This document shows positions 11,115 to 28,910 of a DNA stretch of 32,120 bases, one piece after another. Made by a program: the position numbers and the translations under genes. Source of the DNA: Hoeflea sp. BRH_c9 (lineage in GTDB: Bacteria > Pseudomonadota > Alphaproteobacteria > Rhizobiales > Rhizobiaceae). The first letter of the stretch is position 1; every line of letters starts with the position of its first letter. Below the pieces are notes generated by a model. That model was not told the origin of the DNA. It did not search any database and saw nothing but the letters and a program-made list of their open reading frames with translations. The stretch spans positions 1-32,120 of the forward strand of contig LADQ01000017.1 in the NCBI GenBank assembly GCA_000961635.1, given 5' to 3'.

Positions 11115-11156
11115 AACGCCTCCTCCCATTCCCAACCCGTGAATCAATTGCGCGGA

Positions 11157-12095
11157 TCATATTCCTACGGGCAATCGCAGCGAACCGCGCATATTGGTTT
11201 TCGCCCAGTAATCGGTCAGCGCCGAGGTGTCCTGGCCCGCATACCCGTCATCAATCGCCTTTTGAAACATGTCGCGGGCCAGCCCGCCCATCGGGACAGA
11301 GACCCCGGCGCTTTCGGCGGCCTGGCAGGCAAGGGTCAAATCCTTGTGACCAAGCACGATGTCAAAGCCCGGACTCGTATCTCCGCGTAGCACCTTGGCC
11401 GGCCATTTGTCTCGAAGCTGACCGTTCGACGCCGTTGTCTCGAGCAGGACATCGAGGGTTCCCGAGAGATCCAGACCCAGCGCATCACTGAGAACGAGAG
11501 CCTCGGAGTTCAACTGACAATATGAGAGCACAAGGAAGTTGTTGACCAGCTTCGTGCGTGTTCCATCTCCCGCGGATCCACAGTGATAAACCGTTGTGCC
11601 CATTGCCAGAAGCAAGGGGTGAATGGTCGAGAAAACACTGTCATCGGCCCCGACCATAAAAAGCGATTGGCCCTTGTCCGCATGTGCGGCCAGCCTGCCG
11701 ACTGGTGCATCGGCAAACGACAGGCCACGATCGCTCGCGACGGCAGACAAGCGGTCAACCGTGCCGATATCAACGGTGCTCATGTCAACGATCGTCGCGC
11801 CCGGGCGGGCATGGGCAAAAACACCATCGGGATCCAATGCCACCTGCAAGACTTCCTTCGGTCCCGGCAACATCATGAAGATGACATCGGCCTCGCCGGC
11901 CAGTTCGGCCACATTCTTTGCCTGGGTGACGCGCTCGCCCGTCAGTTCTTTCGCCCGTACGTCGGAGATATCGTAGACGCGAAGCGCAAAACCCTTTCGC
12001 GCCAGGTTTGATGCAAGTGCGAAGCCCATTCTTCCCAGACCGATAAATCCGACCTTCGTTTTGCATGAGTCGGAGACCCGCGGCTCATCTTCCAT
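11157..12095 (-). CDS. 3-hydroxyisobutyrate dehydrogenase family protein (first copy)
   Basis: A 312-aa beta-hydroxyacid dehydrogenase. The N-terminal NAD(P)-binding motif is GFIGLGRMG (residues 16-24). The catalytic lysine is Lys182, with Asn185/Asn186 nearby (TKLVNNF), followed by GHKDLTLA. The family oxidises or reduces short hydroxy acids and semialdehydes. In the substrate loop, where typical members read DAPVSGG, this protein reads DAPVGR, giving Arg134. The same Pro-x-x-Arg pattern is known from the sulfolactaldehyde reductase YihU, where the Arg binds the anionic end of the substrate. Arg134 therefore suggests a substrate with a second negative group, such as a dicarboxylic semialdehyde or a sulfonate. 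It leads the operon with dctQM, so it probably handles the imported compound. AGGGA lies 9 nt before the ATG. Confidence 0.9.
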   Translation of the reverse strand: MEDEPRVSDSCKTKVGFIGLGRMGFALASNLARKGFALRVYDISDVRAKELTGERVTQAKNVAELAGEADVIFMMLPGPKEVLQVALDPDGVFAHARPGATIVDMSTVDIGTVDRLSAVASDRGLSFADAPVGRLAAHADKGQSLFMVGADDSVFSTIHPLLLAMGTTVYHCGSAGDGTRTKLVNNFLVLSYCQLNSEALVLSDALGLDLSGTLDVLLETTASNGQLRDKWPAKVLRGDTSPGFDIVLGHKDLTLACQAAESAGVSVPMGGLARDMFQKAIDDGYAGQDTSALTDYWAKTNMRGSLRLPVGI

Positions 12096-12127: not shown

Positions 12128-12171
12128 TTGACAACGAAACGGTGACTCGCAATTAATAGAACACTGTTCTA
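12128..12171. promoter_or_regulatory. Divergent promoter with AGAAC-N3-GTTCT operator (site A)
   Basis: On the plus strand TTGACA (12128-12133) is followed after 17 nt by AATTAAT. The perfect 15-bp palindrome TAGAACACTGTTCTA (12157-12171) follows directly, so the operator would cover the transcription start of the ALDH operon. On the minus strand the same palindrome sits between TTGATT and TATTAA, inside the promoter of the HIBADH-dctQM operon. Such placement fits a repressor. A near copy occurs at 25562-25603 (site B). TetR-family binding is inferred from the short, symmetrical form and the nearby tandem-TetR gene. Confidence 0.7.
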
Positions 12172-12287
12172 AAAATCAACCTCTTTCGGCGAATTGCCAG
12201 AAAGTCGGGGAAAACAGGCAATTGCGTCGAGCAGCCGCCACCCCGCGGTACGTGCTTGATGCCCAAATCAGAAGAAGGACGTTCAAC

Positions 12288-13727
12288 GTGGCAATGAAAT
12301 TCCCGGCCTCGGGTCGCTGGATCACCGGTGCTGGTCCGGTACTGCAGTCAACGAATCCCGCCACCGGTTTGGTGCATGCGGAAATTGGCACCCCATCCAG
12401 TGAGGAAATCGCACAGGCCTGCGCTTTTGCTGCTGAAAGTGCTGCCGCCAAGTCCTGGCGGGACCTGAAGCCGCACCAGCGCGCCGATTACCTGCACCGC
12501 ATTGCCAACGGCATCAGTCACGGCCTTGACGATCTTGCCCAGGCGCAAATGATCGAGAACGGCAAAACACTCAAGGAATGCCGGCAGCAAGCCGCCAGTG
12601 CGGCAGCCACCTTCAGGTACTACGCCGCAGTTTGCGAAACGATGGAATCAGCAGTCCCTCCCAGTCGCGGCGACTATCTGGTCGTCACCACATTCGAGCC
12701 TTACGGCGTCGTCGCGGCGATCACGCCCTGGAACTCGCCACTGACAATGGAGGCGCAGAAGGTTGCGCCAGCGCTGGCGGCAGGAAACACGGTGGTTCTG
12801 AAGCCATCGGAAGTCACCACCCTGCCCAGCCTTTCCCTCGCCAGGATATGCGAAGAAGCGGGCCTGCCTTCGGGAATCCTGTCCGTATTGCCGGGCTATG
12901 GGCGCGATGTCGGGACAAGCCTCCTGGCGCAGCGCGAAGTGCGCATGGTCTCCTTTACCGGCGGCACGGAAACCGGACGGGCGATCGCGCAGACCGCAGC
13001 CAAACGCCTGATTCCCGCAGCCCTCGAGCTTGGCGGAAAATCACCCCATATTATCTTGGAGGATGCCGATATCGACGCGGCCTGCGCTGGCGTCGTTGAC
13101 GGTATATTTGAAGGGATGGGCCAGTCGTGCGTTGCCGGATCACGGCTCTTTGTCCCCCGCGCCAGACACGACGAGATCGTGGACATCCTTGTTCGTAAGG
13201 CCGAATCTATCCGTCTCGGCCAGCCAACCGGTCCAGACACAGAGCTCGGGCCGCTTTCCTCTCATCACCATCGCGACAAAGTGGCCGACTATGTCGATCT
13301 GGCGAGGAAGGAAGGCGCCAGCATCGCCACAGGCGGGAGCCGCCCCTCCGGGTCGGAGTTCGACAACGGCGCATTTTACCAGCCGACGATCATCACGGGC
13401 CTGACCAATGCAGCGAGGGTCTGCCAGGAAGAGATCTTCGGCCCAGTCCTCTGTGTGCTTCCTTTCGACAATGAACAGGACCTGGTGGAACAAGCCAACG
13501 ATACCGCCTTTGGATTGGCGTGCGGCATCTGGACCTCGGACTACCGCAGGGCCTGGAGGATCTCGCGCGCGATCGACGCCGGCACGGTGTGGGTTAACAC
13601 CTACAAGCAGCTGAGCATTTCGGCGCCTTTCGGCGGCTTCAAGGACAGCGGCATTGGCCGCGAGAAAGGCCTGTCCGGCATGCGCCTCTATCAGCAGGCG
13701 AAAAGCACCTACTTCTCAATGAAGTGA
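12288..13727 (+). CDS. Aldehyde dehydrogenase (NAD(P)-dependent, ALDH superfamily)
   Basis: A soluble enzyme of about 479 aa that oxidises an aldehyde to its acid. Visible motifs are the cofactor-binding ITPWNSPL and VVLKPSE, the Rossmann SFTGGTETG, the general base Glu247 in LELGGKSP and the nucleophile Cys281 in GQSCVAGS, followed by QEEIFGPV. Start choice: GTG at 12288 has AGAAGGA at 12273-12279 with an 8-nt gap. ATG at 12294 (two codons later) is possible but sits 14 nt from that sequence. The longer frame back to 12222 lacks support. It is 32 nt ahead of a second HIBADH-family gene in one operon, so the pair could run hydroxy acid to semialdehyde to acid. The actual aldehyde is not determinable. 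Confidence 0.92.
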   Translation: MAMKFPASGRWITGAGPVLQSTNPATGLVHAEIGTPSSEEIAQACAFAAESAAAKSWRDLKPHQRADYLHRIANGISHGLDDLAQAQMIENGKTLKECRQQAASAAATFRYYAAVCETMESAVPPSRGDYLVVTTFEPYGVVAAITPWNSPLTMEAQKVAPALAAGNTVVLKPSEVTTLPSLSLARICEEAGLPSGILSVLPGYGRDVGTSLLAQREVRMVSFTGGTETGRAIAQTAAKRLIPAALELGGKSPHIILEDADIDAACAGVVDGIFEGMGQSCVAGSRLFVPRARHDEIVDILVRKAESIRLGQPTGPDTELGPLSSHHHRDKVADYVDLARKEGASIATGGSRPSGSEFDNGAFYQPTIITGLTNAARVCQEEIFGPVLCVLPFDNEQDLVEQANDTAFGLACGIWTSDYRRAWRISRAIDAGTVWVNTYKQLSISAPFGGFKDSGIGREKGLSGMRLYQQAKSTYFSMK

Positions 13728-13759
13728 CACCCCACGCGGTAAATTTACGGCAGGACATC

Positions 13760-14644
13760 ATGAACTCAAGCATACATGCCGCAATCGGCTTCATCGGACT
13801 GGGCGTCATGGGAAGCCCCATGTGCCGAAATCTGATCCGCAAGGCGCCGAACTCGCGGATCACCGTTTTCGACCGGTCTGCGGATGCAACCAACCGGATT
13901 GCAGACGAAGGCGCCGAAAGCGCGGCCAACGCCACCGAACTGGTTGGAAAGGCGGACATCGTTATCTTGTCCTTGCCCAATGGCGAGGCCGTCGAAAGCA
14001 TTATCTCGGAAGTCAGTGCGAACATAAAGCCCGGGCAGGTCATCATCGACACGTCAACCACCCCGGTTGCCCTCACCAAGGAAATGGCTGCCCGCGTTCG
14101 GGCAGCCGGAGCCGACTATCTGGATGCTCCGATTGCCCGGACCCGGCAGGCCGCGGAGGACGGAACGCTGAGCATCATGGTTGGCGGCGATATTTCGGCC
14201 TTCGAGCGCGTACGTCCAATTCTGGAGTGCATGGGTTCGGACGTCACCCATTGCGGCCCTGTCGGCGCGGGCCAGATCGTCAAGATCCTGAACAACATGG
14301 TTCTGTTCCAGACCGTACACGCCCTTTCGGAAGCACTGGCAATCGCGGTCCGTGCCGGGATAGACGGAGACATGCTTTTCGATGTGTTCTCGAAAGGCTC
14401 AGCCGACAGTTTCGCCTTGAGAAATCATGGCAGAAAAGCGCTGCTCAAGAATGATTTCCCGCCGCGGGCTTTCTCCACCGACTATGCCCGCAAGGACAAC
14501 ACCTATGCGATCGCTCTGGCAGAATCGGTCGGCGTGACCGCAAGAGGAGCCAATCTACTCGATGGCGTCTTCGCGCAAGCGCAGGAACAAGCCATGAGCG
14601 ACTGCTACTTTCCGGTCTTTCACAAACTCCACGATTCGAATTGA
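13760..14644 (+). CDS. 3-hydroxyisobutyrate dehydrogenase family protein (second copy)
   Basis: A 294-aa paralogue of the enzyme at 11157-12095. The dinucleotide motif is GFIGLGVMG (residues 10-18). The catalytic Lys175 with Asn178/Asn179 lies in KILNNM. In the substrate loop it reads DAPIARTR, which again puts an Arg (127) where common members have Gly. Both copies therefore seem built for an anionic substrate. The C-terminal part is divergent from the first copy, so this is an old duplication or separate recruitment rather than a recent copy. AGGA lies 4-5 nt before the chosen ATG. A GTG at 13724 overlaps the ALDH stop and would add 12 non-family residues. It forms an operon with the ALDH. 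Confidence 0.9.
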   Translation: MNSSIHAAIGFIGLGVMGSPMCRNLIRKAPNSRITVFDRSADATNRIADEGAESAANATELVGKADIVILSLPNGEAVESIISEVSANIKPGQVIIDTSTTPVALTKEMAARVRAAGADYLDAPIARTRQAAEDGTLSIMVGGDISAFERVRPILECMGSDVTHCGPVGAGQIVKILNNMVLFQTVHALSEALAIAVRAGIDGDMLFDVFSKGSADSFALRNHGRKALLKNDFPPRAFSTDYARKDNTYAIALAESVGVTARGANLLDGVFAQAQEQAMSDCYFPVFHKLHDSN

Positions 14645-14772
14645 CCTGTGGTCGCATCTCGCGACACTGATCCGGGCTGAATGCAGGAAGTGGGCTTGGG
14701 AGGAGGATCCCGGCCAGGGTCTCTCTGGAGCATCGGCGATCCAGCCTCTTCACCGGTTGTAACAGACGGGCC

Positions 14773-14795
14773 TCAGACGCTAGAAGATGGTCTGA
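14773..14795. promoter_or_regulatory. Inverted repeat upstream of the tandem TetR gene
   Basis: TCAGAC (14773-14778) and GTCTGA (14790-14795) are perfect inverted half-sites 11 bp apart, about 60 bp before the regulator start. The 212-bp gap shows no other clear signal and no copy of the AGAAC-N3-GTTCT palindrome. A role in autoregulation is possible but unproven. Confidence 0.3.
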
Positions 14796-14856
14796 AGAAC
14801 TCCTACTGTCGGGTGGGGTGAAGCAATTCACCAGCACCGAACCAGGGTGGCACTGC

Positions 14857-16083
14857 ATGCAGGCGCGGGAAACAAAGCGCTCCGCGAAAAAGCGCGAGAT
14901 CATTCTCGATGCCGCGGCTTCACACTTCAACCGGAAGGGCGTGCGCGGCGCGACCTTGACCGAGATCGCTGCAAGCGTTGGCCTCGTCACCAACAGCATC
15001 ACATATTATTATCGCAAGAAGGAAGATCTGGCGGCGGCCTGCCTCGTGCGAACCATCGATGTGGTCAAACAACTGATCGCCGAAGCTGTCCTGGAAGCAA
15101 CGCCGGAAGACAGGCTCAGGACCTTGTTGCGGCTCTACGCCAACCGCCTTGCCGCGGGCGCTTCGGGATCCCTCTCCTCGATCATGAGCTTCAACGATAT
15201 TCGCGCACTGGCAAGCCCTCATGCGGAAACGGTTTTCGAAGAATACAATCTGATGTTTCGCCAACTCCGCGAACTTTTCAGGGACCTACCGCATGAGCTC
15301 AGCCGCCCCGAACAAAATGCGCGAACACACCTTTTGCTTTCTATACTCCATGCCGCGCAGGAATGGCTGAATTACTACGAAACAGAAGACTATTTGCACA
15401 CCGCGGAGAGAATTGGCGACGTTGTGATTCGAGGGCTGGGCGGGGTCGGATTGAAGTGGGACGCGGCCCGGGATATCGTACTGCTTCCGGAAGCTGAAGG
15501 CGACCCCGCACGGGCGGCATTCCTGCGCGCCTCGACGCGGCTCATCAATGACCAGGGTTACCGCGGCGCATCCGTGGAAAAAATCTCCGCCGAACTGAAT
15601 GTGACCAAGGGCTCCTTCTACCATCACATCGAGAGCAAGGATGAGCTGATCGTCGACTGCTTTGAGCGCAGTTTCCATGTGCTGCGAAGCGCACAGAACG
15701 CAGCCTTTTCGTCTCCTGGAACAGGCCTCGACCGGCTGGTATCGGTCACCGGGAGGCTTATCGCCTATCAGCTGTCCGCGGACGGCCCGCTTCTGCGCAT
15801 ATCGGCTTTCAACGCCCTGCCGGAAAACCTGCGTGAAGAGATGAAGCATACGATGGAGCGATTGTCGCGCCGGTTCAGCGAATTCGTGGTTGACGGAATG
15901 ATCGACGGGTCCATCCGTATTATGGACCCCGCAGTGGCTGCCTTCCTGCTCAACAGCATGATAAACGCGACAATCGAGGTCGAATGGTGGGTTGCCGGCG
16001 CCTCCCCCGAAGAGATAACCGGCTTCTACGCCACCCCGCTTTTCACCGGCATCTTCGCGAATCCGGCGATCAGTCCGCGTTGA
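14857..16083 (+). CDS. Tandem (double) TetR-family regulator
   Basis: A 408-aa protein, twice the usual TetR length, containing two complete TetR units. The first DNA-binding domain is at about residues 12-60 (REIILDAAASHF, then TLTEIAASVGLVTNSITYYYRKKEDL). The second is at about 220-268 (RAAFLRASTRLI, then SVEKISAELNVTKGSFYHHIESKDEL). Each is followed by a helical ligand/dimerisation region. The recognition helices differ (VTNSITYYY against TKGSFYHHI), so the halves may read different half-sites, or one chain may act as a built-in dimer. Start choice: ATG 14857 has AGGGTGG at a proper gap. GTG 14818 would add 13 residues. It lies between the two operator-bearing divergent promoters, making it the best candidate for their regulator. 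Its 3' end overlaps the oppositely oriented hydratase/dehydrogenase gene by 14 nt. Its ligand is perhaps an acyl-CoA. Confidence 0.88.
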   Translation: MQARETKRSAKKREIILDAAASHFNRKGVRGATLTEIAASVGLVTNSITYYYRKKEDLAAACLVRTIDVVKQLIAEAVLEATPEDRLRTLLRLYANRLAAGASGSLSSIMSFNDIRALASPHAETVFEEYNLMFRQLRELFRDLPHELSRPEQNARTHLLLSILHAAQEWLNYYETEDYLHTAERIGDVVIRGLGGVGLKWDAARDIVLLPEAEGDPARAAFLRASTRLINDQGYRGASVEKISAELNVTKGSFYHHIESKDELIVDCFERSFHVLRSAQNAAFSSPGTGLDRLVSVTGRLIAYQLSADGPLLRISAFNALPENLREEMKHTMERLSRRFSEFVVDGMIDGSIRIMDPAVAAFLLNSMINATIEVEWWVAGASPEEITGFYATPLFTGIFANPAISPR

Positions 16084-18169
16084 CTGCGCCAGGGATATAA
16101 TCGCTGAATTTCTGGCCCTTGGCGGCAAGTTGTTCCAGAAGCGCCGATGGCTTGAAGCGTGCACCATACTCGGCCTCAAGGGCGCGAAGGCGGTCAACGA
16201 TGACCTGCAGTCCGGTTTGGTCCGCATAATACATCGGACCGCCGCGATAGGCCGGCCAGCCATAGCCGTTAATCCAGATCACATCGATATCGGATGCGCG
16301 TAGAGCCTTGCCCTGGCGAAGGATCTCGGCGCCCTCATTGATCATCGGGAGCAGCAGTCGCTGCAATATTGCGTCATCGGACATCACCTGTTGTGCGATC
16401 CCGTCCCTGACGGCGACATCGCGAATGAGGTCTTCGACCAGGGCCGACGGTTTGGCCTTTCGGTCACCGTCATAATCGTAGTAACCGGCCCCGGTTTTCT
16501 GGCCCCGCCGATCGATTTCACACAGCCTGTCGCGGACCGTTGCTCCCTGCGAGGTCTTGCGCGTCCATCCGAGGTCAAGGCCGGCAAGGTCGGCCATCGC
16601 GAAAGGCCCCATCGGCAATCCGAAATCGACCAGAACCCTGTCCACATCCGACGGGCTAGCGCCCTCCAGGATCAGGCGGTCCGCTTCATCCTGGCGTTGC
16701 GCCAGCATACGGTTTCCGACAAAGCCATGGCAGACCCCGACAACCACACCGACTTTTCCAAGGTCCCGCGCAAGCGCCATGGCCTGCGCGATCACCGCAG
16801 CATCGGTCTTGTCTCCGCGCACAATCTCGACAAGCCGCATGATATTGGCTGGCGAAAAGAAATGCATTCCCACCACGGATTCCGGACGGCCGGTCACCGC
16901 CGCGATCTGATCGACGTCCAGATAGGACGTATTGGTGGCCAGAATGGCTCCAGGCTTCGCTACCCGGTCGAGTTCGGTGAAGATCGCTCTCTTTACCGCC
17001 ATTTCCTCATAGGCGGCCTCAATGATCAGGTCGCACTCCGCAAGAGCCGACATATCGAGGTGGCCTGATATCAGATCCACCCGCTGTTTCATCGAATTCG
17101 GGCTGATTCGGCCCTTCTTCGCGGAACGCTCGTAGGTCTGACGGATATTGGCCAGACCGCGTTCGATCGCAGCTTGCTCCGCTTCGACGATCTTCACGCG
17201 AAAGCCTGCATTGGCGAAACTCATGGCGATGCCGGTGCCCATGGTGCCCGCGCCAATAACGCCGACGGTTTCGATCGGCTTTGGCCGCTCCTGGTGTGAA
17301 AGTCCCGGAATCTTGCCGGCTTCACGCTCGGCGAAAAACGCATAACGCATCGCCGCCGACTGGGGATCGGCCATAAGTTCATCAAACAGCGCACGCTCGA
17401 TCTTCAATCCATCGTCAAAGGGCAATGCCATGGCTGCTTCCACGCACCGGATGATGTATTCCGGCGCCTTCAATCCGCGGAATTTGCGGGCGTTGGTTCT
17501 CCGGTAATCCTCGAAGAACGCGCCAAGACCGTCCATCCCCTGTTTGTTGGCTTCCATCTCGCAAATTCTGCGCAAGGGCGGCGCTTCGGAAACGATCTTT
17601 TCCGCAAAGGCCAAAGCACTGGCCTGAAGCGCCGCCTCGTCAACGAATGCGTCGATGATGCCCGCATTCAGTGCCTCATTCGCGTCGATCTGATCACCGG
17701 ATATCATCAAATCGAGGGCGGCTTTCGGCCCGACAAGGCGGGGCAGCCGCTGCGTTCCGCTCGCGCCAGGAAGCAGACCGAGTTTCACCTCCGGCAGTCC
17801 GAACCGCGCCGAGGCGGCGGCAACACGATAGTGACAGGCAAGGGCCAGTTCCAGACCGCCGCCCAGAGCCGTCCCGTGGATCGCTGCGATCACCGGATAT
17901 GGCATCTGCTCGATCGCCACCAAAACCTCCGGCAGGTCTGGCGATAACGGCGCATTTCCGAATTCCTTGATGTCCGCTCCGGGAAAAAAGGTCCGGCCCG
18001 CGCACATTATGACAATTGCCTTGATCGTCTTGCCCAGGGACACCTCTGCCAAGGCCTGCACAAGGCCGAGGCGAACCTGCACCGAAAGCGCGTTGACCGG
18101 CGGTGAGTCGGCCGTCACCACCGCGATCTGGCCGAAGCGGCTTACTTTCACAACTGAACTATCGGACAC
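16070..18169 (-). CDS. Bifunctional enoyl-CoA hydratase/3-hydroxyacyl-CoA dehydrogenase (PimF/FadJ-like)
   Basis: A 699-aa beta-oxidation protein. The N-terminal crotonase domain (about 1-190) has [21 protein letters not shown] and [19 protein letters not shown], which carry the two conserved hydratase glutamates. The central NAD-binding domain from about residue 297 has [14 protein letters not shown]. The 3-hydroxyacyl-CoA dehydrogenase part has the catalytic-His segment [17 protein letters not shown] and GFVGNRML, then a C-terminal helical domain with [10 protein letters not shown]. It hydrates 2-enoyl-CoA and oxidises the 3-hydroxyacyl-CoA. The start is GTG with GGGAGGG 7 nt upstream. It lies 76 nt downstream of the thiolase in the same orientation and next to pimC/pimD-like genes, so a dicarboxylyl-CoA substrate is favoured. 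Its last 14 nt overlap the TetR gene tail to tail. Confidence 0.93.
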
Positions 18170-18217
18170 CTTGAAGCCCTCCCCCTGGTAGAAGCTCTAA
18201 ACTGATTGTGTTTGCGC

Positions 18218-18230
18218 GCCCGAACCGGGC
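18218..18230. other. Small stem-loop between thiolase and hydratase genes
   Basis: GCCCG-AAC-CGGGC makes a 5-bp GC stem with a 3-nt loop in the 76-nt gap. No T-run follows on the minus strand, so it may trim or protect mRNA rather than terminate. Confidence 0.3.
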
Positions 18231-18245
18231 ATCAACTGGCATGGG

Positions 18246-19448
18246 TCAGTAGATTTCGAACAATCCGGCGGCTCCCATGCCTCCGCCTATGCACATGCTG
18301 ACAACTCCATAGCGGGCGCCGCGACGCTTGCCTTCGATCAGAACGTGCCCGGTCATGCGCGCTCCGGACATGCCGTAGGGGTGGCCGATGGAAATCGCGC
18401 CGCCGCTGACATTCAGCAGTTCGCCATCAATGCCGAGCCTGTCCCGGCAATAGACGACCTGGCAGGCGAAGGCCTCGTTGATCTCCCAGATCCCGATGTC
18501 GTCAACAGTGAGGCCAGCCTGGGCCAGCAGTTTCGGAATTGCGAATACCGGTCCGATGCCCATTTCCTCGGGCCCGCATCCGGCGACGGCCAGTCCGCGA
18601 TAGGCGCCGAGTGGCTGCAGGCCGCGGCGTTCGGCGGATTTCGCCTCCATCAGAACGCAAGCAGAGGCTCCGTCCGAAAGCTGCGACGCATTGCCCGCCG
18701 TCACGTAGCGCCCTTCCGCTATCCGCTCACCACCGGAAAACACCGGTTTGAGCGATCGGAGATCCTCAATCCTGGTTTGCGGCCGGTTCCCCTCGTCCTG
18801 AGACAAGATGATCTGGCGTTCGCTCACCTCTCCGGTCACCTTGTCCTTCTGATGCATGACCGTGGCGTAAGGCACGATTTCTGCGTCGAAACGTCCGTCC
18901 TGCTGTGCCCGCGCCGTACGCATTTGCGATTGCAGCGCATAGTCATCCTGCGCGTCGCGCGAGATCCCGTAGCGCTCGGACACGATCTCGGCCGTTTCCA
19001 GCATCGACATGTACAGCGCGGGAATTTTCGCGACGAGGGCCGGATCCTGCGCCCGAAAGAAATTGGCCTTATCGTTCTGGACCAGCGAGATCGATTCCAA
19101 CCCGCCACCGATCGCCACGTCCATTTCGCCCAGCATGATCCCCTTGGCCGCCGAGGCGATCGCCACCAGGCCGGATGAACATTGCCGGTCGAGGGTCATT
19201 GCCGCAACCGATACAGGAAGCCCGGCGCTCAACGCCGCCTGCCGCGCGACATTGAATCCGGTCGCCCCCTGCTGCCAGGCAGCCCCCATCACCACATCAC
19301 CAATCTCATCGGGGGCAACCCCGGCCCTTGCCACGGCATGAGCGATGACATGCCCTCCCAGCGCTTGAGGCTGGGTGGAGTTGAATGCGCCTCGATACGC
19401 CTTCCCGATCGGCGTCCGGGCAGTGGATACAATCACGGCTTCACGCAT
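18246..19448 (-). CDS. Thiolase (acetyl-CoA C-acyltransferase)
   Basis: A 400-aa thiolase that cleaves 3-oxoacyl-CoA with CoA into acetyl-CoA and a shortened acyl-CoA. The acylated cysteine is Cys90 in LDRQCSSG. The other active-site blocks are present: [23 protein letters not shown] (His) and the final [10 protein letters not shown] (Cys). It is family-typical in length. Start choice: ATG at 19448 gives the standard [16 protein letters not shown] opening. The frame is open for a further 34 codons upstream, but that part crosses the promoter and is not thiolase-like. It is the first gene of the leftward beta-oxidation operon with the hydratase/dehydrogenase, and is divergent from the pimC/pimD-like pair. 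This neighbourhood resembles the pimFABCDE cluster of Rhodopseudomonas, where pimB is the thiolase. Confidence 0.93.
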
Positions 19449-19535
19449 TCTGCATTCGCTCTTCTGTTCGATGGCTGAATAACCTGTGGCGGCGCGGCAG
19501 GACGAAGATCCGCCGCAACCCTGAATTCCACAAAA

Positions 19536-19557
19536 ACCGATATTTTGCAATACCGGT
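19536..19557. promoter_or_regulatory. Inverted repeat in the thiolase/acyl-CoA dehydrogenase divergent gap
   Basis: ACCGATATT (19536-19544) and AATACCGGT (19549-19557) form an imperfect inverted repeat (one mismatch) around TTGC. The right arm lies within the perfect 10-bp palindrome ATACCGGTAT (19550-19559). It lies between the two beta-oxidation operons and upstream of the candidate promoter at 19591-19618. It does not match the AGAAC-N3-GTTCT sites, so a different regulator, for example an acyl-CoA-responsive one, probably acts here. Confidence 0.5.
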
Positions 19558-19590
19558 ATGTTTTTGAATGGATCAATTTCCCTTTGTATG

Positions 19591-19618
19591 TTGACTTTGA
19601 AACAGGCATCGATATTTT
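19591..19618 (+). promoter_or_regulatory. Candidate sigma-70 promoter of the pimCD-like operon
   Basis: TTGACT (19591-19596), 16-nt spacer, TATTTT (19613-19618). The start of transcription would fall near 19625, giving a leader of about 90 nt that includes a short reading frame at 19638. Confidence 0.5.
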
Positions 19619-19637
19619 TTCGAAAAGGAAGACTAAT

Positions 19638-19721
19638 ATGTGGAAGTGCGGCATTCGCTGCTTTCGCTTATCCGGCCGGGTCTTCACTCTCTGTCATCAA
19701 GCTGGAAGGATGCCGACGTGA
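19638..19721 (+). CDS. Possible 27-codon leader peptide overlapping the pimC-like start
   Basis: An ATG at 19638 has AGGAA (19626-19630) with a 7-nt gap, a good ribosome site. The frame runs 27 codons and ends with TGA at 19719-19721, which overlaps the GTG start (19718) of the acyl-CoA dehydrogenase as GTGA. The peptide is rich in Arg and contains three Cys (begins MWKCGIRCF). The arrangement would couple translation of the enzyme to that of the leader. The same ribosome site could instead serve a GTG at 19640 in the enzyme's own frame, which would lengthen the enzyme by 26 residues, so the leader is a hypothesis. Confidence 0.4.
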
Positions 19722-20911
19722 ACCTGGATTTCACCCGCGAGGAGCAGGAATTCCGCGAAGATGTGCGGTGTTTTTTTCAGACCGCCCTGCCCGATTCCAT
19801 CCGCCGCAAGATACGCCTGAACCGCGACCTTTCCAGGCAGGAGCTGGTCGACTGGACACGCATCCTCAACCGCAAGGGATGGGCCGTGCCACACTGGCCC
19901 ATAGAATGGGGTGGAACAGGATGGGGCCCGGTCAAGCAGGCTATTTTCCTGGACACGCTTCAACAGGAAAACGCACCGGAAACGCTCTCTTTCGGGACGA
20001 GCATGGTCGGGCCGATTATCTATACATTCGGCAATGAGGAGCAGAAGCGCAGATTCCTTCCACGTATTGCCAATCTCGATGACTGGTGGTGCCAGGGATT
20101 TTCCGAACCTGGGGCCGGATCGGATCTTGCGTCCCTCGCAACGACGGCGATACGCGACGGCGATCACTACATCGTCAACGGCCAAAAAACCTGGACAACG
20201 CTTGCCCAGCACGCCAACTGGATTTTCTGCCTGGTCCGGACCAATCGGGAGGTCCGCAAGCAGGCAGGCATTTCCTTCCTGCTGATCGACATGGCGACGC
20301 CCGGTGTCGCTGTCCGGCCCATTCAAACCATCGACGGCGGCCACGAGATCAATGACGTCTTCCTAGACAATGTCCGGGTTCCCGTGGAAAACCTGGTTGG
20401 CGAAGAGAACCTGGGCTGGTCCTACGCCAAGTTTCTGCTCGGGAATGAGAGAACGGGCATTGCCCGGGTGGGGGCATCCAAAGCGCTGTTGCGGCAGGTC
20501 AGAGAGCTGCTTGATACAGACAGCGGCCCCGGATCGGTGGCGGGCGACATTTTGCGGTTCCGGGAGCGGCTGGCGGCGCTTGAGGTTGAGCTGAAGGCGC
20601 TGGAGATCACGCAGTATCGTGTTCTGGCGAGGCAGGCCGAACAGGGCGATACCCGGCAGAATCCCGCAGCCAGCATTCTGAAAGTGAAAGGCACCGAAAT
20701 CCAGCAGGCAATTTCCGAATTGATACTGGATATGGCCGGCGCCCGCGCCCTGGCGGTGCACGACCCGGAGGAGAATGGCGGCCACTTTGCGGATCCGGAT
20801 TCTTGGACGCAAACCGTGGCGGCGACCTATGCGAACTGGCGCAAAATTTCGATCTATGGCGGCTCGAACGAGATCCAGCGCAACATCATCGCCAAACAGA
20901 TCCTCTCCTGA
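19718..20911 (+). CDS. pimC: Acyl-CoA dehydrogenase, pimeloyl-CoA dehydrogenase large-subunit type
   Basis: A 397-aa flavoprotein. It closely recalls the large subunit PimC of Rhodopseudomonas and rhizobia: GWAVPHWPIEWGGTGW, DDWWCQGFSEPGAGSDLAS, QKTWTTLAQHANWIFCL, RPIQTIDGGHE and LLGNERTGIARVG are visible. It ends in IYGGSNEIQRNIIAKQIL. The Glu of GNERTG is the likely catalytic base, because the C-terminal position of the medium-chain-type base is Gly. PimC pairs with PimD to dehydrogenate dicarboxylyl-CoA esters such as pimeloyl-CoA. Start choice: GTG 19718 has GGAAGGA with a 7-nt gap and gives the standard [10 protein letters not shown] opening. The small-subunit gene follows 48 nt later. 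The family assignment is from memory of sequence motifs, and the chain length of the substrate is unknown. Confidence 0.88.
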   Translation: MNLDFTREEQEFREDVRCFFQTALPDSIRRKIRLNRDLSRQELVDWTRILNRKGWAVPHWPIEWGGTGWGPVKQAIFLDTLQQENAPETLSFGTSMVGPIIYTFGNEEQKRRFLPRIANLDDWWCQGFSEPGAGSDLASLATTAIRDGDHYIVNGQKTWTTLAQHANWIFCLVRTNREVRKQAGISFLLIDMATPGVAVRPIQTIDGGHEINDVFLDNVRVPVENLVGEENLGWSYAKFLLGNERTGIARVGASKALLRQVRELLDTDSGPGSVAGDILRFRERLAALEVELKALEITQYRVLARQAEQGDTRQNPAASILKVKGTEIQQAISELILDMAGARALAVHDPEENGGHFADPDSWTQTVAATYANWRKISIYGGSNEIQRNIIAKQILS

Positions 20912-20959
20912 GAGTGCCTGTAGCACCTACAAACCCATCCATTATTCTGAGAACAGGCC

Positions 20960-22135
20960 ATGATTTTTGAACTGACAGACCAGCAACGCCTGGTCAAGGA
21001 CAGCGTGGATCGCCTGATGAGCGACCGCTACACGTTCGAGGCACGTGAAACCATCCGCAAAGGAACCGAAAACTGGAGCCGGGAGCGCTGGAAGGATTAT
21101 GCCGGTCTCGGCCTGCTCGCACTTCGGGTAGACGAAGCTGATGGTGGTTTTGGATGCGGTCCTTTCGACACCATGATCGTCATGGAAGCCTTTGGCCGCG
21201 CGCTGGCGCTTGAACCCTATGTATCGACGGTTTTGCTCGGCGCCGGATTGATCCGCCTCGCGGCCAATGCGGAACAGAGAGCACGTTTGCTGCCTCCCCT
21301 GTGCGAGGGCAGGCTGCTGCTTGCGTTTGCCCATTCCGAAGAGCAATCGGGAAACGATCTCCGCCATGTCGCGGCAACCGCCGCTCCGGCCGAGGGTGGA
21401 TTTGTCCTCAATGGCAAGAAGACCCTGGTGCTTCACGGAGACAGCGCTGACTATCTCATTGTGTCGGCCCGGTCCTCCGGTGCCACGCTTGATCCGTCCG
21501 GCATCGGCCTCTTTCTCGTCGCGGCCGAGGCCTCCGGGCTAAGCCGGCGGAGCTACCGGATGATCGACGGACAGCGTGCGGCCGATATCGAGCTCAATGG
21601 TGTAAGGGTGTCCCCGGACAACGTGATCGACGCGTCGGGCCAGTCTCTGCCGATCATTCAACAGGTCGTCGAGGAGACGATCGCAGCGCTCGCCGCGGAG
21701 GCGGTCGGCGTGATGGATGAAATGCTGCGATTGACCTCGGACTACCTTCGGGTCCGCAAACAGTTCGGCGTCGAGATTGCGTCATTTCAAGCGATCCAGC
21801 ATCGTCTGGCGGATATGTTTATCGCACTGGAACAAGCGCGCAGCATGGCCATGTTCGCAGCCAATGCCTGCCAATCGGATGACGCCTCGCATCGTTCAAC
21901 CTGTATTGCCGCGGCAAAGGTCCAGATCAGCCGATCGATCCGCTTCGTCAGTCAGCAGGCCATTCAGCTTCACGGCGGGATCGGCATGACGATGGAATAC
22001 AAGATCGGCCACCTGTTCCAGCGCGCGACCATGATCGACACGCTGTTCGGCAATGGCGACCATCACCTTTCAAGGCTCGCTGCGGGCAGCGGCCTGTTCG
22101 CCGCGTTAGACGGATGTGCCTCCGATTCGAGATGA
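20960..22135 (+). CDS. pimD: Acyl-CoA dehydrogenase, pimeloyl-CoA dehydrogenase small-subunit type
   Basis: A 391-aa partner of the preceding large subunit. It opens MIFELTDQQRLVKDSVDRL and has AFAHSEEQSGNDL, GKKTLVLHGDSADYLIVSAR, DGQRAADIEL, KQFGVEIASFQAIQHRLADM and QLHGGIGMTMEYKIGHLFQRATMIDTLFG. All of these fit PimD-type subunits. These proteins lack the usual EGT/GGT C-terminal catalytic segment (here MIDTLFGNGDHH), so the pair probably forms a heteromeric enzyme in which the large subunit supplies catalysis. It shares an operon with the large subunit and ends 128 nt from the oppositely oriented glycerol-dehydrogenase-like gene. The ATG start is certain by family. The Shine-Dalgarno is modest (GAGAACAGG region). 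Confidence 0.88.
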   Translation: MIFELTDQQRLVKDSVDRLMSDRYTFEARETIRKGTENWSRERWKDYAGLGLLALRVDEADGGFGCGPFDTMIVMEAFGRALALEPYVSTVLLGAGLIRLAANAEQRARLLPPLCEGRLLLAFAHSEEQSGNDLRHVAATAAPAEGGFVLNGKKTLVLHGDSADYLIVSARSSGATLDPSGIGLFLVAAEASGLSRRSYRMIDGQRAADIELNGVRVSPDNVIDASGQSLPIIQQVVEETIAALAAEAVGVMDEMLRLTSDYLRVRKQFGVEIASFQAIQHRLADMFIALEQARSMAMFAANACQSDDASHRSTCIAAAKVQISRSIRFVSQQAIQLHGGIGMTMEYKIGHLFQRATMIDTLFGNGDHHLSRLAAGSGLFAALDGCASDSR

Positions 22136-22195
22136 ATGCGGCATAGTCTACTGCTACCGGCGTGGCTGCAGTACTGTAAGGGATCCCGGCAAACA

Positions 22196-22211
22196 CGGCA
22201 GCGTTCTGCCG
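22196..22211. terminator. Weak stem-loop between convergent genes
   Basis: CGGCAG-CGTT-CTGCCG is a 6-bp stem with a 4-nt loop midway between the stops of the pimD-like gene and the glycerol-dehydrogenase-like gene. There is no clear T-run on either strand, so it would be a weak or Rho-assisted bidirectional terminator. Confidence 0.35.
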
Positions 22212-22263
22212 CATCGGTTCAAAACGGGGTGATTGCTGCTACCAGCCTGCCTTGTGGAGATAC

Positions 22264-23352
22264 TCATGCACCCAGCGCTTCGATCCTGGCAATGGCTGCA
22301 ACGAGGCCCTCGGGCGATATCCGCGAACGGCGCGCGGCGACATAGGGCGCCTCGAATGTCAGTTCGGCTATCCTGGCCACATCGACTTCCGGCAAATCCC
22401 CCAGTCCAATATCGGCAAGGCAAGTGGGCAATCCAATGCCGGAAAGGAATTGTTTCAGATCGAGCAGAAAGGACTGCGGCTGGTCGGCCAAGGCGAGCTG
22501 CACCAGCAATCCGTAGGCGACAAGCTCTCCGTGAAGTGACTTGGCGGTTTGCGGAAAGGCGGTGAATCCGCGCAGCATGCCATGTGCGATGGAGAGGCCG
22601 CCGCCTTCGAAAGCCAGCCCGGAGTACAGGACGGTCGCCTCGATCACGCGCTCGAACGCGGCGTTGGGGGTGCCTCGGTCTATCGCCGACAGGGCCGCTT
22701 CCGTATCCTTGCGCAGAATGTCGTAGCAACTGTTGGCGAGGAAAGACGCCAGCATGGTTTGCGATCCATCAAAGAAATTGGGAATGCCGGCGCTTCCGGC
22801 GTCGGCGACCTCGAATTTCTTGGTGATTGCATCGCCGATTCCGGCCACGAAAAAGCGGCGGGGCGCGGACAGGATGATGGATGTATCAACAATAACGGCA
22901 TCGGGGTTACGGCGCATGCGCGGTACGGCGACGATTTTGTGATTCTCGTCGTAGATCGCAGCGATCCGGCTTGTTGGCGCATCGCTGGACGCCACGGTCG
23001 GGACAATCACCAGCGGCACGTCAAGAGCCGATGCGACCGCCTTGGCGGTATCCAGCGCCTTGCCCCCGCCTGCCCCGATCACCACACCGCACTCATCAAC
23101 GCCGATCTTGGCCACGAGCCGGTTGATTTCCGAATGCGTGCATTCGCCTGAAAACGCATGGAGCACCATTTCGGACCCTCCAGCCTTTTTCATGTCGGCT
23201 TTGACCTGGTCGAACAGCGGGAGCACGAACGGGTCGACAATCGCTGCAATCCCGGGCTTGCGGGTGAGGTTTTTCACCCATTCGGGGATGCTTGCCAAAG
23301 CACCAGGGCCCTGAACATAGATTGAAGGGAAGCCGATAGCTTTCAGATCCAT
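22264..23352 (-). CDS. Iron-containing alcohol dehydrogenase, glycerol dehydrogenase-like
   Basis: A 362-aa GldA-type enzyme with an NAD-binding GAGGGKALDTAKA (residues 94-106). Three metal ligands fit the zinc-dependent glycerol dehydrogenases: Asp174 (GIGDAITKK), His257 (LSIAHGML) and His274 (KSLHGELV). Members oxidise glycerol or other vicinal diols and hydroxyketones, but many are misnamed, and a diol or hydroxy acid from the local pathway is equally possible. GGAGAAAG precedes the ATG at a good gap. It is the last gene of the operon acyl-CoA ligase, thioesterase, dehydrogenase, 39 nt after the thioesterase. Its membership in a CoA-ligase operon is unusual for a glycerol enzyme and argues for another substrate. 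Confidence 0.85.
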   Translation of the reverse strand: MDLKAIGFPSIYVQGPGALASIPEWVKNLTRKPGIAAIVDPFVLPLFDQVKADMKKAGGSEMVLHAFSGECTHSEINRLVAKIGVDECGVVIGAGGGKALDTAKAVASALDVPLVIVPTVASSDAPTSRIAAIYDENHKIVAVPRMRRNPDAVIVDTSIILSAPRRFFVAGIGDAITKKFEVADAGSAGIPNFFDGSQTMLASFLANSCYDILRKDTEAALSAIDRGTPNAAFERVIEATVLYSGLAFEGGGLSIAHGMLRGFTAFPQTAKSLHGELVAYGLLVQLALADQPQSFLLDLKQFLSGIGLPTCLADIGLGDLPEVDVARIAELTFEAPYVAARRSRISPEGLVAAIARIEALGA

Positions 23353-23391
23353 TGCTTTCTCCGTCTCGTGTGCCGCCTCCGTATGAACGGA

Positions 23392-23919
23392 TCAGCGACG
23401 ATGCTTTTTCAAAACAATCTGGCGGCCCACGTAGCGCGGTGGCGGCAGGTTTTCATGATTCCTGGCCACGTCCTGAAATCGTTCAGAAGCGGCCTTGGGA
23501 AAGTCTGACGGGCGCCGCGTTGTCATATCGACACACACCAGCAACTGCTCGTTGGCGGCCGCGAGGCAGTCGTTCTTTTCATCATGCAGCGACATATGGA
23601 CATGAGCCCGTTCAGCGGTCAGGCCCAACACCTGCAAGGAGATGCGTATTGGCGCCCCGCGTATCAGCTCGCGTTTGAAAACGAGATTTGCCTGAGCCAC
23701 GAAGATCGATTTGTCGGTCTGCGCGATCTGATCCGGACCGATGGCCATGCCCGTGCAGAAGGTACAAATCGCTGCATCGAAGGCAGTCAGATATGAGGCG
23801 ACATTCATATGGCCATTGTGATCCACCCACGCGTCGCGAACTGTTTCCCGGCTGATCAGCAGACTGCCATCCTGGTCGTGTTCGAACCCGTAAAGCGCTG
23901 TGGAGGCGAGTTGGTTCAT
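23392..23919 (-). CDS. Hot-dog acyl-CoA thioesterase (4HBT-like)
   Basis: A 175-aa hot-dog-fold protein with the hallmark VDHNGHMNVASYLTAFD at about residues 32-48, where the Asp and the NGHMN helix form the active site in the 4-hydroxybenzoyl-CoA/carnitine-operon thioesterase group. It hydrolyses an acyl-CoA to release CoA, perhaps to prevent CoA trapping or to free the end product. Start choice: ATG at 23919 overlaps the stop of the CoA ligase as ATGA. The frame extends 32 codons further but lies inside the ligase gene. The basic tail (LKKHRR) is unremarkable. Its substrate is unknown, and operon placement suggests the same acyl group as the ligase. Confidence 0.85.
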   Translation of the reverse strand: MNQLASTALYGFEHDQDGSLLISRETVRDAWVDHNGHMNVASYLTAFDAAICTFCTGMAIGPDQIAQTDKSIFVAQANLVFKRELIRGAPIRISLQVLGLTAERAHVHMSLHDEKNDCLAAANEQLLVCVDMTTRRPSDFPKAASERFQDVARNHENLPPPRYVGRQIVLKKHRR

Positions 23920-25532
23920 GCCGGGAAAGCCTTTCGCAGTTCGGATTTCAGGATCTTGCCGGTAGCGGAGACCGGCATCTGCTCCACGATTTCCACCCGC
24001 GCCGGCATCCACCATTTCACGACTTGCGATTCGATATGGGATAAAAGCGCGTCGGGGTCGAACCTGTCCGCGCCAGCCTCAAGCTGTATGATGAGGAGCG
24101 GTCGCTCCTGCCATTTGGGATGCGGGATGCCGATCACCGCTGCATATTTGACGCCTGGGTGCGTCAGCGCAAAGGATTCCAGTTCCGAGGTGGATATCCA
24201 TTCGCCACCGGACTTGATGATGTCCTTGGCGCGATCCTTGATGTCGAGATAACCCTGCCCGTCAAGCGTCGCCATGTCGCCGGTTACGAGCCAGCCGTCA
24301 TCGGTCAGCGGGCTGGTGTCCTCGTTGAAGTAGCCGTTGGCGGTCCAGGGGCCGCGCGCATGGAGATGCCCGACCGACTTTCCATCATGGGGAAGAATAT
24401 CGCCGGCGTCGCTGACGATGCGCAACCGTGTGCCCCAACTCGCCCGCGCCGTCTTCTTCTTGGAAGCCAACTGGTCAGCCTTCGCAAGCCTGTCGAGCCC
24501 CGGTTTCAGCGATCCCTTGCTGGAACAAAGCGATTCGGTCATCCCCCAGGTCTGGACAATGCTGACGCCGTGATCGCGTTCCCACCGCTCGATCAGCAAC
24601 TGCGGCACGGCGCTGCCGCTGGTCAGAAAAGATTGCAGGCTGGCAATGGTCGAGCCATGCTCGTCGAGCCAGTCGCACAATCCCAGCAACACCGTCGGCA
24701 CGGCGCCAGCGATGGTGACACCTTCCTCGTTCATCAATTGACACAGGGCCTGGGGAGAATGCTGGCGGCCGGGCAGGACAAGCTTGCCGCCACTTATCGG
24801 CGCCGTGTGCGGGAAACTCCAGCCGGTGGCGTGGAACATGCCAGCGATCGGCATGTAGACATCCAATGCGCCATTGCGATAACCGCCGAAGAAATCCTTG
24901 GCGATGCTTGCAAGCGCGATCAGAACCAGCGACCGGTGCGAGTAGAGCACTCCCTTGGGGTTTCCGGTCGTTCCGGAAGTATAGCACAGCACTGCACCCG
25001 CCCGCTCGTCGAATTCGGGGAAGCCTTTGAGCGGCGGTGCATCGGCGACAAGCGTCTCGTATCGAAGATAGCTGCGATCCAGATCGGGGAGCTTTTCACC
25101 GTCATCAATTAGAATGAGCGTTTTGATGCGCGTGAGCCTTGGCAGTGCCTGGGCCACGATTTCCGCGCAGCCGGTATCGAAAATAAGCACCTCCGCTCCA
25201 CCGTGGTTGATGATATAGGCGACATGTTCTGCGGAAAGGCGCGGATTGACGGTGTGCAGAATACCGCCGGCGCCGGGGACCGCGTAGAACAACTCGAAAT
25301 GCTGCCGGGTGTTCCAGCACAGCGTTGCCACGCGATCAGATTGGCGCAGGCCCAGACCGGTCAGCGCCGCGGCGATCCGCAACGTCCGGTCATAGGCATC
25401 GGCATAGCCGTAGCGCAGTGTCTTATCCGTCATGGTTCGGGAAACAACCTGCGTGTCACCATGATACTCGGCGGCGTACTCGATGATGGACGACAACAGC
25501 AGCGGCGCATCCATCATTAATCCGTTGATCAT
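23916..25532 (-). CDS. AMP-forming acyl-CoA ligase (fatty-acid/dicarboxylate CoA ligase family)
   Basis: A 538-aa member of the ANL superfamily that activates a carboxylic acid to acyl-CoA through an acyl-AMP. The P-loop YTSGTTGNPKG lies at about residues 184-194. QTWGMTE is the A5 motif. GWLVTGDMATLDGQGYLDIKDRAKD is the hinge region, and ATGKILK carries the catalytic lysine. The sequence resembles medium/long-chain ligases of the AlkK type. In a pim-like pathway it would play the role of PimA, but the substrate pocket cannot be read. AGGAGG lies 6 nt before the ATG. It is the first gene of a leftward operon with the thioesterase and the glycerol-dehydrogenase-like enzyme, and its promoter contains the site B palindrome. 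Confidence 0.93.
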   Translation of the reverse strand: MINGLMMDAPLLLSSIIEYAAEYHGDTQVVSRTMTDKTLRYGYADAYDRTLRIAAALTGLGLRQSDRVATLCWNTRQHFELFYAVPGAGGILHTVNPRLSAEHVAYIINHGGAEVLIFDTGCAEIVAQALPRLTRIKTLILIDDGEKLPDLDRSYLRYETLVADAPPLKGFPEFDERAGAVLCYTSGTTGNPKGVLYSHRSLVLIALASIAKDFFGGYRNGALDVYMPIAGMFHATGWSFPHTAPISGGKLVLPGRQHSPQALCQLMNEEGVTIAGAVPTVLLGLCDWLDEHGSTIASLQSFLTSGSAVPQLLIERWERDHGVSIVQTWGMTESLCSSKGSLKPGLDRLAKADQLASKKKTARASWGTRLRIVSDAGDILPHDGKSVGHLHARGPWTANGYFNEDTSPLTDDGWLVTGDMATLDGQGYLDIKDRAKDIIKSGGEWISTSELESFALTHPGVKYAAVIGIPHPKWQERPLLIIQLEAGADRFDPDALLSHIESQVVKWWMPARVEIVEQMPVSATGKILKSELRKAFPA

Positions 25533-25561
25533 TCATTTCCTCCTGGTGGTCAGAAATGCGC

Positions 25562-25603
25562 TTGACGCCTTCCGATCAATATCCAATAATAGAACGACGT
25601 TCT
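25562..25603. promoter_or_regulatory. Divergent promoter with AGAAC-N3-GTTCT operator (site B)
   Basis: On the plus strand TTGACG (25562-25567), 17 nt, AATAAT, then directly the perfect palindrome AGAACGACGTTCT (25591-25603). This copies the layout of site A (12128-12171): the distance from TTGAC to AGAAC is 29 bp here and 30 bp there, and both palindromes are followed by an A-rich run. On the minus strand TATTAT next to the palindrome can serve as the -10 of the acyl-CoA ligase operon. The shared design implies one repressor for both loci. Confidence 0.7.
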
Positions 25604-25714
25604 GAAAACAAGGTCTCAATCCATCGGGACCCATCAAAGGCTTCAGTCAAGTCACGCATCATAAGCAATGCCGCGTTAGAGCATTGGAAGTCAGAACCGA
25701 AAGGGAAGAAGCGA

Positions 25715-26224
25715 ATGACAGTTTTTCCTAACCCCGTGCCACCGGAACGGCAGCCGGCCGAAATGTCGCAGGACATCGTGCTCAAGGCCGAACCCGATGA
25801 CGAACGGGTATGGGTTCCCATGGGCGACAATGTCTGGTTTCGCCCATTGCTGCTGCACACGGTCGAGGGCTACTGGACCAGTCTGCTGCGGGTGCGGGCG
25901 TCCGGCGTCGTAAGCTGCCATCGTCATCCGGCCCCGGTGCACGGATACGTCATCAAGGGAAGCTGGCGCTATCTCGAGCACGACTGGATTGCGACCGCAG
26001 GCAGCTACGTGTTTGAGCCTCCGGGTGAAACGCACACTCTCGTTGTCGATGAAGATGTCGACGAGATGATCACCTGGTTCCTGGTCAACGGGGCTATGCT
26101 CTATGTCGATCAGGACGGCAAACTCACCGGCTTCGCGGATGTTTTCCAGCGCATCGAAATGTGCCGGCAACACTACACCAAGGTCGGCCTCGGCGTCGAT
26201 TATGTCAATCAGTTCATCCGGTAG
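25715..26224 (+). CDS. Cupin protein, 2,4'-dihydroxyacetophenone dioxygenase-like
   Basis: A 169-aa single-domain cupin. Metal-binding candidates are His69 and His71 (SCHRHPAP), His76, Glu88 (RYLEHDW) and His107 (GETHTLVV), arranged as the two conserved cupin motifs. The overall look (RPLLLHTVEGYW, HGYVIKGSWRYLEHDW, GSYVFEPPGETHTL) resembles the family named after 2,4'-dihydroxyacetophenone dioxygenase, a carbon-carbon bond-cleaving iron enzyme. Many members have unknown activity. Start choice: ATG 25715 has AAGGGAAG upstream. The frame back to 25556 crosses the promoter. It is the first gene before the TRAP binding protein, under site B, so it may act on the imported compound or its product. 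Confidence 0.8.
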   Translation: MTVFPNPVPPERQPAEMSQDIVLKAEPDDERVWVPMGDNVWFRPLLLHTVEGYWTSLLRVRASGVVSCHRHPAPVHGYVIKGSWRYLEHDWIATAGSYVFEPPGETHTLVVDEDVDEMITWFLVNGAMLYVDQDGKLTGFADVFQRIEMCRQHYTKVGLGVDYVNQFIR

Positions 26225-26240
26225 ACCGGTTTGAATCGAT

Positions 26241-26267
26241 CCGGCATCGGCGCGTCGCCGATGCCGG
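26241..26267. other. Perfect 12-bp stem-loop between cupin and dctP
   Basis: CCGGCATCGGCG, loop CGT, CGCCGATGCCGG. The stem is very stable, but no T-run follows, so full termination is unlikely. In TRAP and ABC operons such a hairpin ahead of the binding-protein gene often sets the amount of that message, and a role in attenuating or stabilising dctP mRNA is inferred. Confidence 0.55.
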
Positions 26268-26315
26268 TGACAAGCACTCGAATATCAAAGTTCATTTAGG
26301 GAGGAGACTATCGAA

Positions 26316-28214: not shown

Positions 28215-28427
28215 ATGCCGGTTACCAACTCCATCCAACGGCTCAACAGCAAAATCAAGCGACGCTGCATCGTGGTGCGGTTGTTCCCTAACGACGACGC
28301 CATCGTGCGCCTCGTCGGTTCTCTTAACGATTAACGGGCCGTACAACGCGCCCGATACGTGACGCGGGAAACCTTCGGACAAATGAACGGTGATCCGCTC
28401 ATCACCTTGCCCGCAGTGGCAAGCTGA
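28215..28427 (+). pseudogene. 3' remnant of IS256-family transposase
   Basis: The frame starting at 28215 reads TNSIQRLNSKIKRR, VVRLFPNDDAIVRLVGSL, a stop (TAA, 28332-28334) and then RAVQRARYVTRETFGQMN to a final TGA. This is the C-terminal end of IS256-family transposases (pattern TN.IERLN.EIKRR...FPN..AIVRLVGA...EW...RRYM). The in-frame stop and loss of residues around it show decay. The rest of the gene is missing, replaced upstream by the IS21-type remnant. Confidence 0.75.
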
Positions 28428-28700: not shown

Positions 28701-28705
28701 AAGAG

Positions 28706-28795
<90 letters not shown>

Positions 28796-28858
28796 GCGTC
28801 TGGTCGGCGCAGTATCAGTGCGCGGGCGCTTCCATAACCGGCGTGAGCTTCTTGCACA

Positions 28859-28876: not shown

Positions 28877-28910
28877 GCCGCCGGCAGACCGGCCGGATAG
28901 CCAATTTGGC

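Follow-up and report, generated by a model that had tools for sequence, protein, structure and literature searches.

Two putative operators and a likely IclR-family regulator for a catabolic gene cluster with a split TRAP transporter in Hoeflea sp. BRH_c9

For IclR-family regulators, the main text of a comparative survey (Suvorova and Gelfand 2021, PMC8222616) gives a "group 2" motif, TGRAACAN1-2TGTTYCA. It also describes three-box sites for 32 orthologous groups, as well as tandem sites, and places most published IclR sites at -20 to -80. A GAAC-N3/N4-GTTC core is common to the group 2 motif and to two sites, here called A and B, each with the palindrome AGAAC-N3-GTTCT, in a stretch of 32,120 nucleotides from Hoeflea sp. 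BRH_c9 (the whole stretch is called the window below). With the gene starts chosen here, the centres of A and B fall within this published range, at about -69 and about -65 from the start codons of the leftward genes, and lie 118-124 bp before the rightward start codons. Comparative sequence analysis suggests that the IclR protein encoded at 8480-9220 very probably controls a local catabolic regulon, with A and B as its two operators. The elements at issue are as follows.

8480-9220, + strand: IclR-family regulator, predicted binder of A and B (Pfam IclR_C and HTH_IclR; motif enrichment at homolog loci; tree).
12128-12157, + strand: promoter-like TTGACA-N17-AATTAAT running up to operator A; second box weak, no call by the promoter scan.
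12157-12171, no strand: putative operator A, TAGAACACTGTTCTA (core AGAAC-N3-GTTCT at 12158-12170), read directly in the divergent gap between HIBADH1 (-) and the aldehyde dehydrogenase (ALDH) gene (+).
25562-25590, + strand: sigma-70-like promoter TTGACG-N17-AATAAT abutting operator B (promoter scan, 10/12 matches).
25590-25604, no strand: putative operator B, TAGAACGACGTTCTG (core at 25591-25603), read directly in the divergent gap between CoA ligase (-) and cupin (+).

The original prediction for this DNA was that twin operators tie two divergent promoters into one regulon. Direct reading finds both palindromes exactly as it described them. On recomputation, TTGAC again starts 30 bp before AGAAC at A (from 12128) and 29 bp before it at B (from 25562), the 17-nt spacing from the TTGAC box to AATTAAT (A) or AATAAT (B) is present in the sequence, and the gene layout places each site in a divergent gap. 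By base composition the window should hold 0.017 copies of the exact core; it holds two. With up to one mismatch there are three, compared with a shuffle mean of 0.42, and three were reached in 2 of 100 shuffles. Both sites lie within the 1,734 bp counted as non-coding between 698 and 27470, again with our gene starts. The further claim that each site governs two operons is, for the leftward operons, proposed from position, because the automatic scan found no leftward sigma-70 promoter on the - strand at A or B. Its single call at these sites was the + strand promoter at B, with none at A.

Searching 394 family genomes with the IclR protein identified 17, the source genome included, whose match reached E 1e-40 or better. 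Oricola nitratireducens carries the whole cluster in identical gene order, and its sites A and B are identical to those of the window including the spacer letters (the 15 letters of A are at L076:14484). In alignments of the two, the TTGAC and operator block is kept and much of the remaining gaps has diverged. Microvirga pakistanensis has the core in the HIBADH/ALDH gap (L110:11816), with a spacer different from that of the window's A, and the exact core also in the cupin/ligase gap, its B block being inverted relative to the window. Among the 80 IclR-homolog loci described below, those of Rhodopseudomonas sp. Cfx3-05 and Bradyrhizobium sp. NAS80.1 show the exact core between ligase and cupin, as site B. 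Counting the window, the HIBADH1/ALDH gap of this cluster was found in three genomes and the ligase/cupin gap in five; all three carry site A and all five site B. TTGAC precedes AGAAC by 29-30 bp at seven of these eight sites (the window's two counted): at A by 30 bp in Oricola and 29 bp in Microvirga, and at B by 29-30 bp in Oricola, Rhodopseudomonas and Microvirga; the distance in Bradyrhizobium is 25 bp. As a control, relatives of the cupin were taken, irrespective of IclR presence, from the best 30 of 76 places, the window's own being one, and none of the 29 relatives (61-69% identical), which lack an adjoining ligase match, has an exact N3 or N4 site within about 1.5 kb. The expectation that the sites are kept in relatives with the same genes was thus borne out, for both sites in Oricola and Microvirga and for B in Rhodopseudomonas and Bradyrhizobium. 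A and B appear to be conserved operators belonging to a single small regulon.

The genome-wide motif search that had been proposed was run with both sites on the source assembly (3.86 Mb, 77% complete), and the exact 15-bp form, TAGAACNNNGTTCTR, was found at A and B only, with no additional copy. The exact core, AGAACNNNGTTCT, has three copies in this genome, about two being expected, and the third (C200:3676) lies inside an open frame of 1,263 bases. Whole-genome searches with the exact 15-bp form returned two places in Oricola, both of them the sites, one each in Rhodopseudomonas and Bradyrhizobium (9.2 Mb), each of them site B, and three in Microvirga, two of which are the sites. Could A and B be chance palindromes that merely look alike? 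The bare 13-bp core occurs 2-13 times per genome in 18 genomes of the genus, the window's included. Family-wide, the 15-bp form occurs at 26 places in 22 of 198 other genomes and is not enriched; because the reversed control is commoner (about 52 against 12 forward-strand matches; both tallies were counted from the listing), these occurrences resemble a chance background. Coincidence would nevertheless have to account for two cores in the window against 0.017 expected, for a 15-bp form confined to those 26 places, for sites that are identical in Oricola despite the divergence of the gaps around them, and for the presence of sites in the same gaps of three more genera. Since the sites are conserved, we consider chance very unlikely, to the point of being negligible.

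In the same 18 genomes, AGAACNNNGTTCT is several-fold commoner than the reversed pattern (0-3 per genome), and other IclR operators or codon effects could explain this excess. Elsewhere in the source genome, one-mismatch sites occur at three loci (L006, L007 and L009). That of L006 is inside a long open frame, and those of L007 and L009 are outside the eight longest open frames listed per locus. The L007 site, TAGAATGCTGTTCTG (G000:C24:9055-9069), is a possible further member of the regulon, judging by its letters.

As first candidate for the regulator, the original prediction named another protein encoded in the cluster.

14857-16083, + strand: tandem TetR protein, two TetR_N stretches in one polypeptide (Pfam); unsupported as regulator of A and B.

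The idea that this protein binds A and B draws on its position: its gene lies within the cluster in the window, Oricola and Microvirga, where the site accompanies it, and Bradyrhizobium also has an ortholog, on another contig. Outside these clusters the association fails. Among 199 genomes, full-length matches (36-48% identity) occur in three others, G133, G159 and G070, the last with two copies. The exact core is at none of these four neighbourhoods (32-36 kb each) and a one-mismatch match at three of them, and the 15-bp site is in none of the three other family genomes carrying orthologs. Likewise, the 20 kb fetched around the tandem TetR gene of Bradyrhizobium hold no exact N3 or N4 site. 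Rhodopseudomonas, on the other hand, has site B and the IclR protein but no full-length tandem TetR, the best match covering about half the protein at 25% identity; because this is a metagenome-assembled genome, the absence is uncertain. Moreover, a different conserved element, in the gap between the thiolase and acyl-CoA dehydrogenase genes, could be the target of the tandem TetR. With the site absent from three genomes that have an ortholog and present in Rhodopseudomonas without one, co-occurrence rules against the tandem TetR as binder of A and B, and we regard such binding as highly improbable.

The different element is TTGCAATACCGGTATG, at 19545-19560 of the window. In a search allowing up to one mismatch, the source genome, Oricola and Microvirga each gave a single match to TTGCAATAYNGGTATG, an exact one in the same gap, and G133, G159 and Bradyrhizobium, all of which have tandem TetR orthologs, gave none. 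The element is perhaps a second, different operator, that of the tandem TetR. Another candidate for this role, the palindrome TACCGGTA at 19551, was rejected: it is not kept in the same gap of Oricola or Microvirga. There are pimC/pimD-like genes close to the tandem TetR orthologs of G133, G159 and one G070 copy, and the G133 and G159 neighbourhoods also have fadJ and thiolase; the second G070 copy has no pimC/pimD-like neighbours.

The protein encoded at 8480-9220 is a member of the IclR family, scoring 52.4 bits with PF09339 (cut-off 22) and 80.8 bits with PF01614 (cut-off 24). Loci of its homologs were retrieved with a peptide pattern from the core of the helix-turn-helix (HTH), and the best 80 of 381 (1.49 Mb) were examined. 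They contain 18 occurrences of the N3 palindrome in 17 loci, compared with 0-6 for the 19 other orders of its letters; six of the 18 are from Pseudomonas species. When spacers of 0-12 nt were scanned in these loci, N3 gave 18 matches and N4 gave 22, and every other spacer at most four. Because the loci of IclR homologs are rich in the motif and the co-occurrence of the tandem TetR fails, A and B are most likely bound by the IclR protein, and the likely regulator is moved from TetR to IclR. A class-wide search for close orthologs (E 1e-55 or better, 385 genomes) returned the source genome only.

Regulators of the GntR family typically recognize TNGTNNNACNA and those of the LysR family T-N11-A, motifs unlike the AGAAC-N3-GTTCT palindrome. 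This general knowledge argues against the two other regulators of the window, GntR (698-1372) and LysR (7404-8312), whose genes are conserved in Oricola and which might otherwise bind A and B, as might a regulator encoded outside the window. In the 42 kb read around the sites of Microvirga, a single LysR match, of 38% identity, stands about 8.5 kb away from site B, and GntR gave no match; in the stretches read from Rhodopseudomonas and Bradyrhizobium, neither was matched. The statistical tie of the motif is to loci of IclR homologs, and binding by any of these other regulators appears improbable. Four results come directly from the analysis and keep the IclR protein in favor: the sites are present, four other genera conserve them, they are rare in the rest of those genomes, and the motif is tied statistically to the IclR lineage.

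A quick tree of 81 IclR rows was built by a short search; it has long branches, and close relatives are counted separately. It places the window's IclR together with its counterparts in Oricola, Rhodopseudomonas, Bradyrhizobium and Microvirga (Shimodaira-Hasegawa-like approximate likelihood ratio test 99). All five genomes of this clade have the site at A and/or B, with N3 spacing and no third box on either side. Among the rows given an operator type (37), there are 21 with N4 and a third box, one with N4 alone, 10 with N3 and a third box, and five with N3 alone, so that 31 have, at a constant distance (N7), a third AGAAC box with at most one mismatch. The sister group of the window's clade comprises 35 rows, 20 of them typed; all 20 are N4 and 19 have the third box. 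On the tree, spacing requires at least two changes and the combined type at least four. The HTH core, approximately TG[LF]YKST[IA]LR[LI], is kept across all operator types, with a few exceptions at the second and last positions. This constancy is partly built in, because the loci were found with a pattern from the same stretch; 15 rows found by protein similarity also keep it. Whether the operator was rebuilt within one IclR lineage that kept its HTH core, about TG[LF]YKSTILRL there, with an N4, mostly three-box sister group and an N3, two-box clade, is an evenly balanced question. If it was, the geometry of the dimer or tetramer changed and the DNA-reading part did not, and these proteins would offer a ready-made set on which to examine the alternative dimerisation modes that have been proposed for the family. 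The operator types of the lineage arrange one half-site differently, so that such modes could be tested in close relatives.

Exact AGAAC-N4-GTTCT sites occur in 22 of the 80 loci (L097-L137, L168 and L173), 21 of them as AGAAC-N4-GTTCT-N7-AGAAC with at most one mismatch in the third box, and many of the N4 loci also hold TcuA/TcuB- and HIBADH-like genes. In six Pseudomonas loci (L139, L141, L148, L154, L156 and L172), an exact N3 site with a third box stands about 3.7-3.8 kb upstream of iclR.

Several observations weigh against control of A and B by the IclR protein as described, or narrow it. Neither the window nor Oricola has an exact site upstream of iclR itself, among the 18 N3 matches at homolog loci a few appear coding, and the bare core recurs across the genus as given above. 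Since the source genome is 77% complete, further sites may be missing from it. An operator type could be given to only 37 of the 81 tree rows, many of them close relatives; 42 have no exact site and two were dropped, their exact sites (in L124 and L151) being judged coding-like and without a third box. The third box of most typed relatives is absent from both sides at 8 of 8 clade sites, where its position has 2-5 of 5 mismatches downstream and 3-5 of 5 upstream. The fit to the full group 2 consensus given in the main text of PMC8222616 is partial, 12 of 14 letters for A and 9 of 14 for B: in both, the positions next to the ends are A and T instead of the consensus G and C, and B departs further at the inner A/T pair and the last letter. 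Finally, because the promoter box at A is weak, the IclR protein could be an activator there.

The genes flanking the two sites are listed below.

9262-11147, - strand: dctM (TIGR00786) and dctQ (PF04290), membrane subunits of a tripartite ATP-independent periplasmic (TRAP) transporter, in the predicted leftward operon of A.
11157-12095, - strand: HIBADH-family dehydrogenase 1 (HIBADH1), first gene left of A (NCBIfam matches, all below cut-off).
12288-13727, + strand: ALDH, first gene right of A (NCBIfam matches below cut-off); the GTG start at 12288 is our choice, and the same GTG is present in the Oricola alignment.
13724-14644, + strand: HIBADH-family dehydrogenase 2 (HIBADH2; NCBIfam matches below cut-off).
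22264-25532, - strand: GldA-like dehydrogenase, thioesterase (Pfam 4HBT_2) and acyl-CoA ligase, in the predicted leftward operon of B (NCBIfam).
25715-27470, + strand: cupin and dctP, rightward operon of B; the closest solved relatives of the cupin are 2,4'-dihydroxyacetophenone dioxygenases.

Given these relatives of the cupin, an aromatic-ketone-like substrate is our guess. A dimer or tetramer of the IclR protein would bind AGAAC-N3-GTTCT, immediately next to the second box of the rightward promoter. Bound there, it would most simply repress ALDH-HIBADH2 and cupin-dctP by steric hindrance of the rightward promoters, and probably HIBADH1-dctQM and ligase-thioesterase-dehydrogenase as well, until it binds a pathway compound. 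What we infer is that the protein binds, that it represses and does not activate, that the leftward operons are under its control, and that the inducer is a pathway compound.

In Bradyrhizobium, genes for the cupin, an extracellular binding protein, an ABC permease, an ABC ATPase, ALDH, HIBADH2 and, as the last gene, IclR run in one direction behind a single site B, presumably as one transcript. In this run, genes that are divided between A and B in the window are neighbours. The run, together with the conservation in Oricola and Microvirga, supports the predicted small regulon that joins the split TRAP halves and the flanking catabolic operons. An uncharacterised catabolic cluster is thereby assigned a likely regulator and operators, and the shared operators would explain joint expression of genes 13 kb apart. 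The window's TRAP dctP is replaced by an ABC transporter behind the Bradyrhizobium site B (L096:3079-7353). The window also has a tRNA-Ser (cga) gene on the - strand at 28706-28795; the overlapping open frame of 174 amino acids (28390-28914) is probably not a gene.

How does this regulator compare with known IclR systems? Its best NCBIfam matches are TIGR02431 (PcaR/PcaU/PobR), at 109.4 bits with a curated cut-off of 284.75, and NF045644 (BhcR), at 96.4 bits with a cut-off of 350; because both scores are far below the cut-offs, it is a member of neither. The literature searched gave nothing on an IclR protein with an AGAAC operator or with a dihydroxyacetophenone dioxygenase, nor anything combining at least three of IclR, TRAP transporter, HIBADH and cupin, and the main text of PMC8222616 has no match for words on these genes, genera or motif. 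The regulon, which the original prediction called new, is therefore new as far as these searches reach, whereas its motif type belongs to a class of IclR operators already published there. The three alternating boxes of the PcaU, PobR and HmgR operators, as cited in that text, are shared by 31 of the 37 typed rows of our tree, whereas the window's clade of five has two boxes only. As far as can be seen from the main text of PMC8222616, the regulon of A and B would be a new example of the IclR group 2 type.

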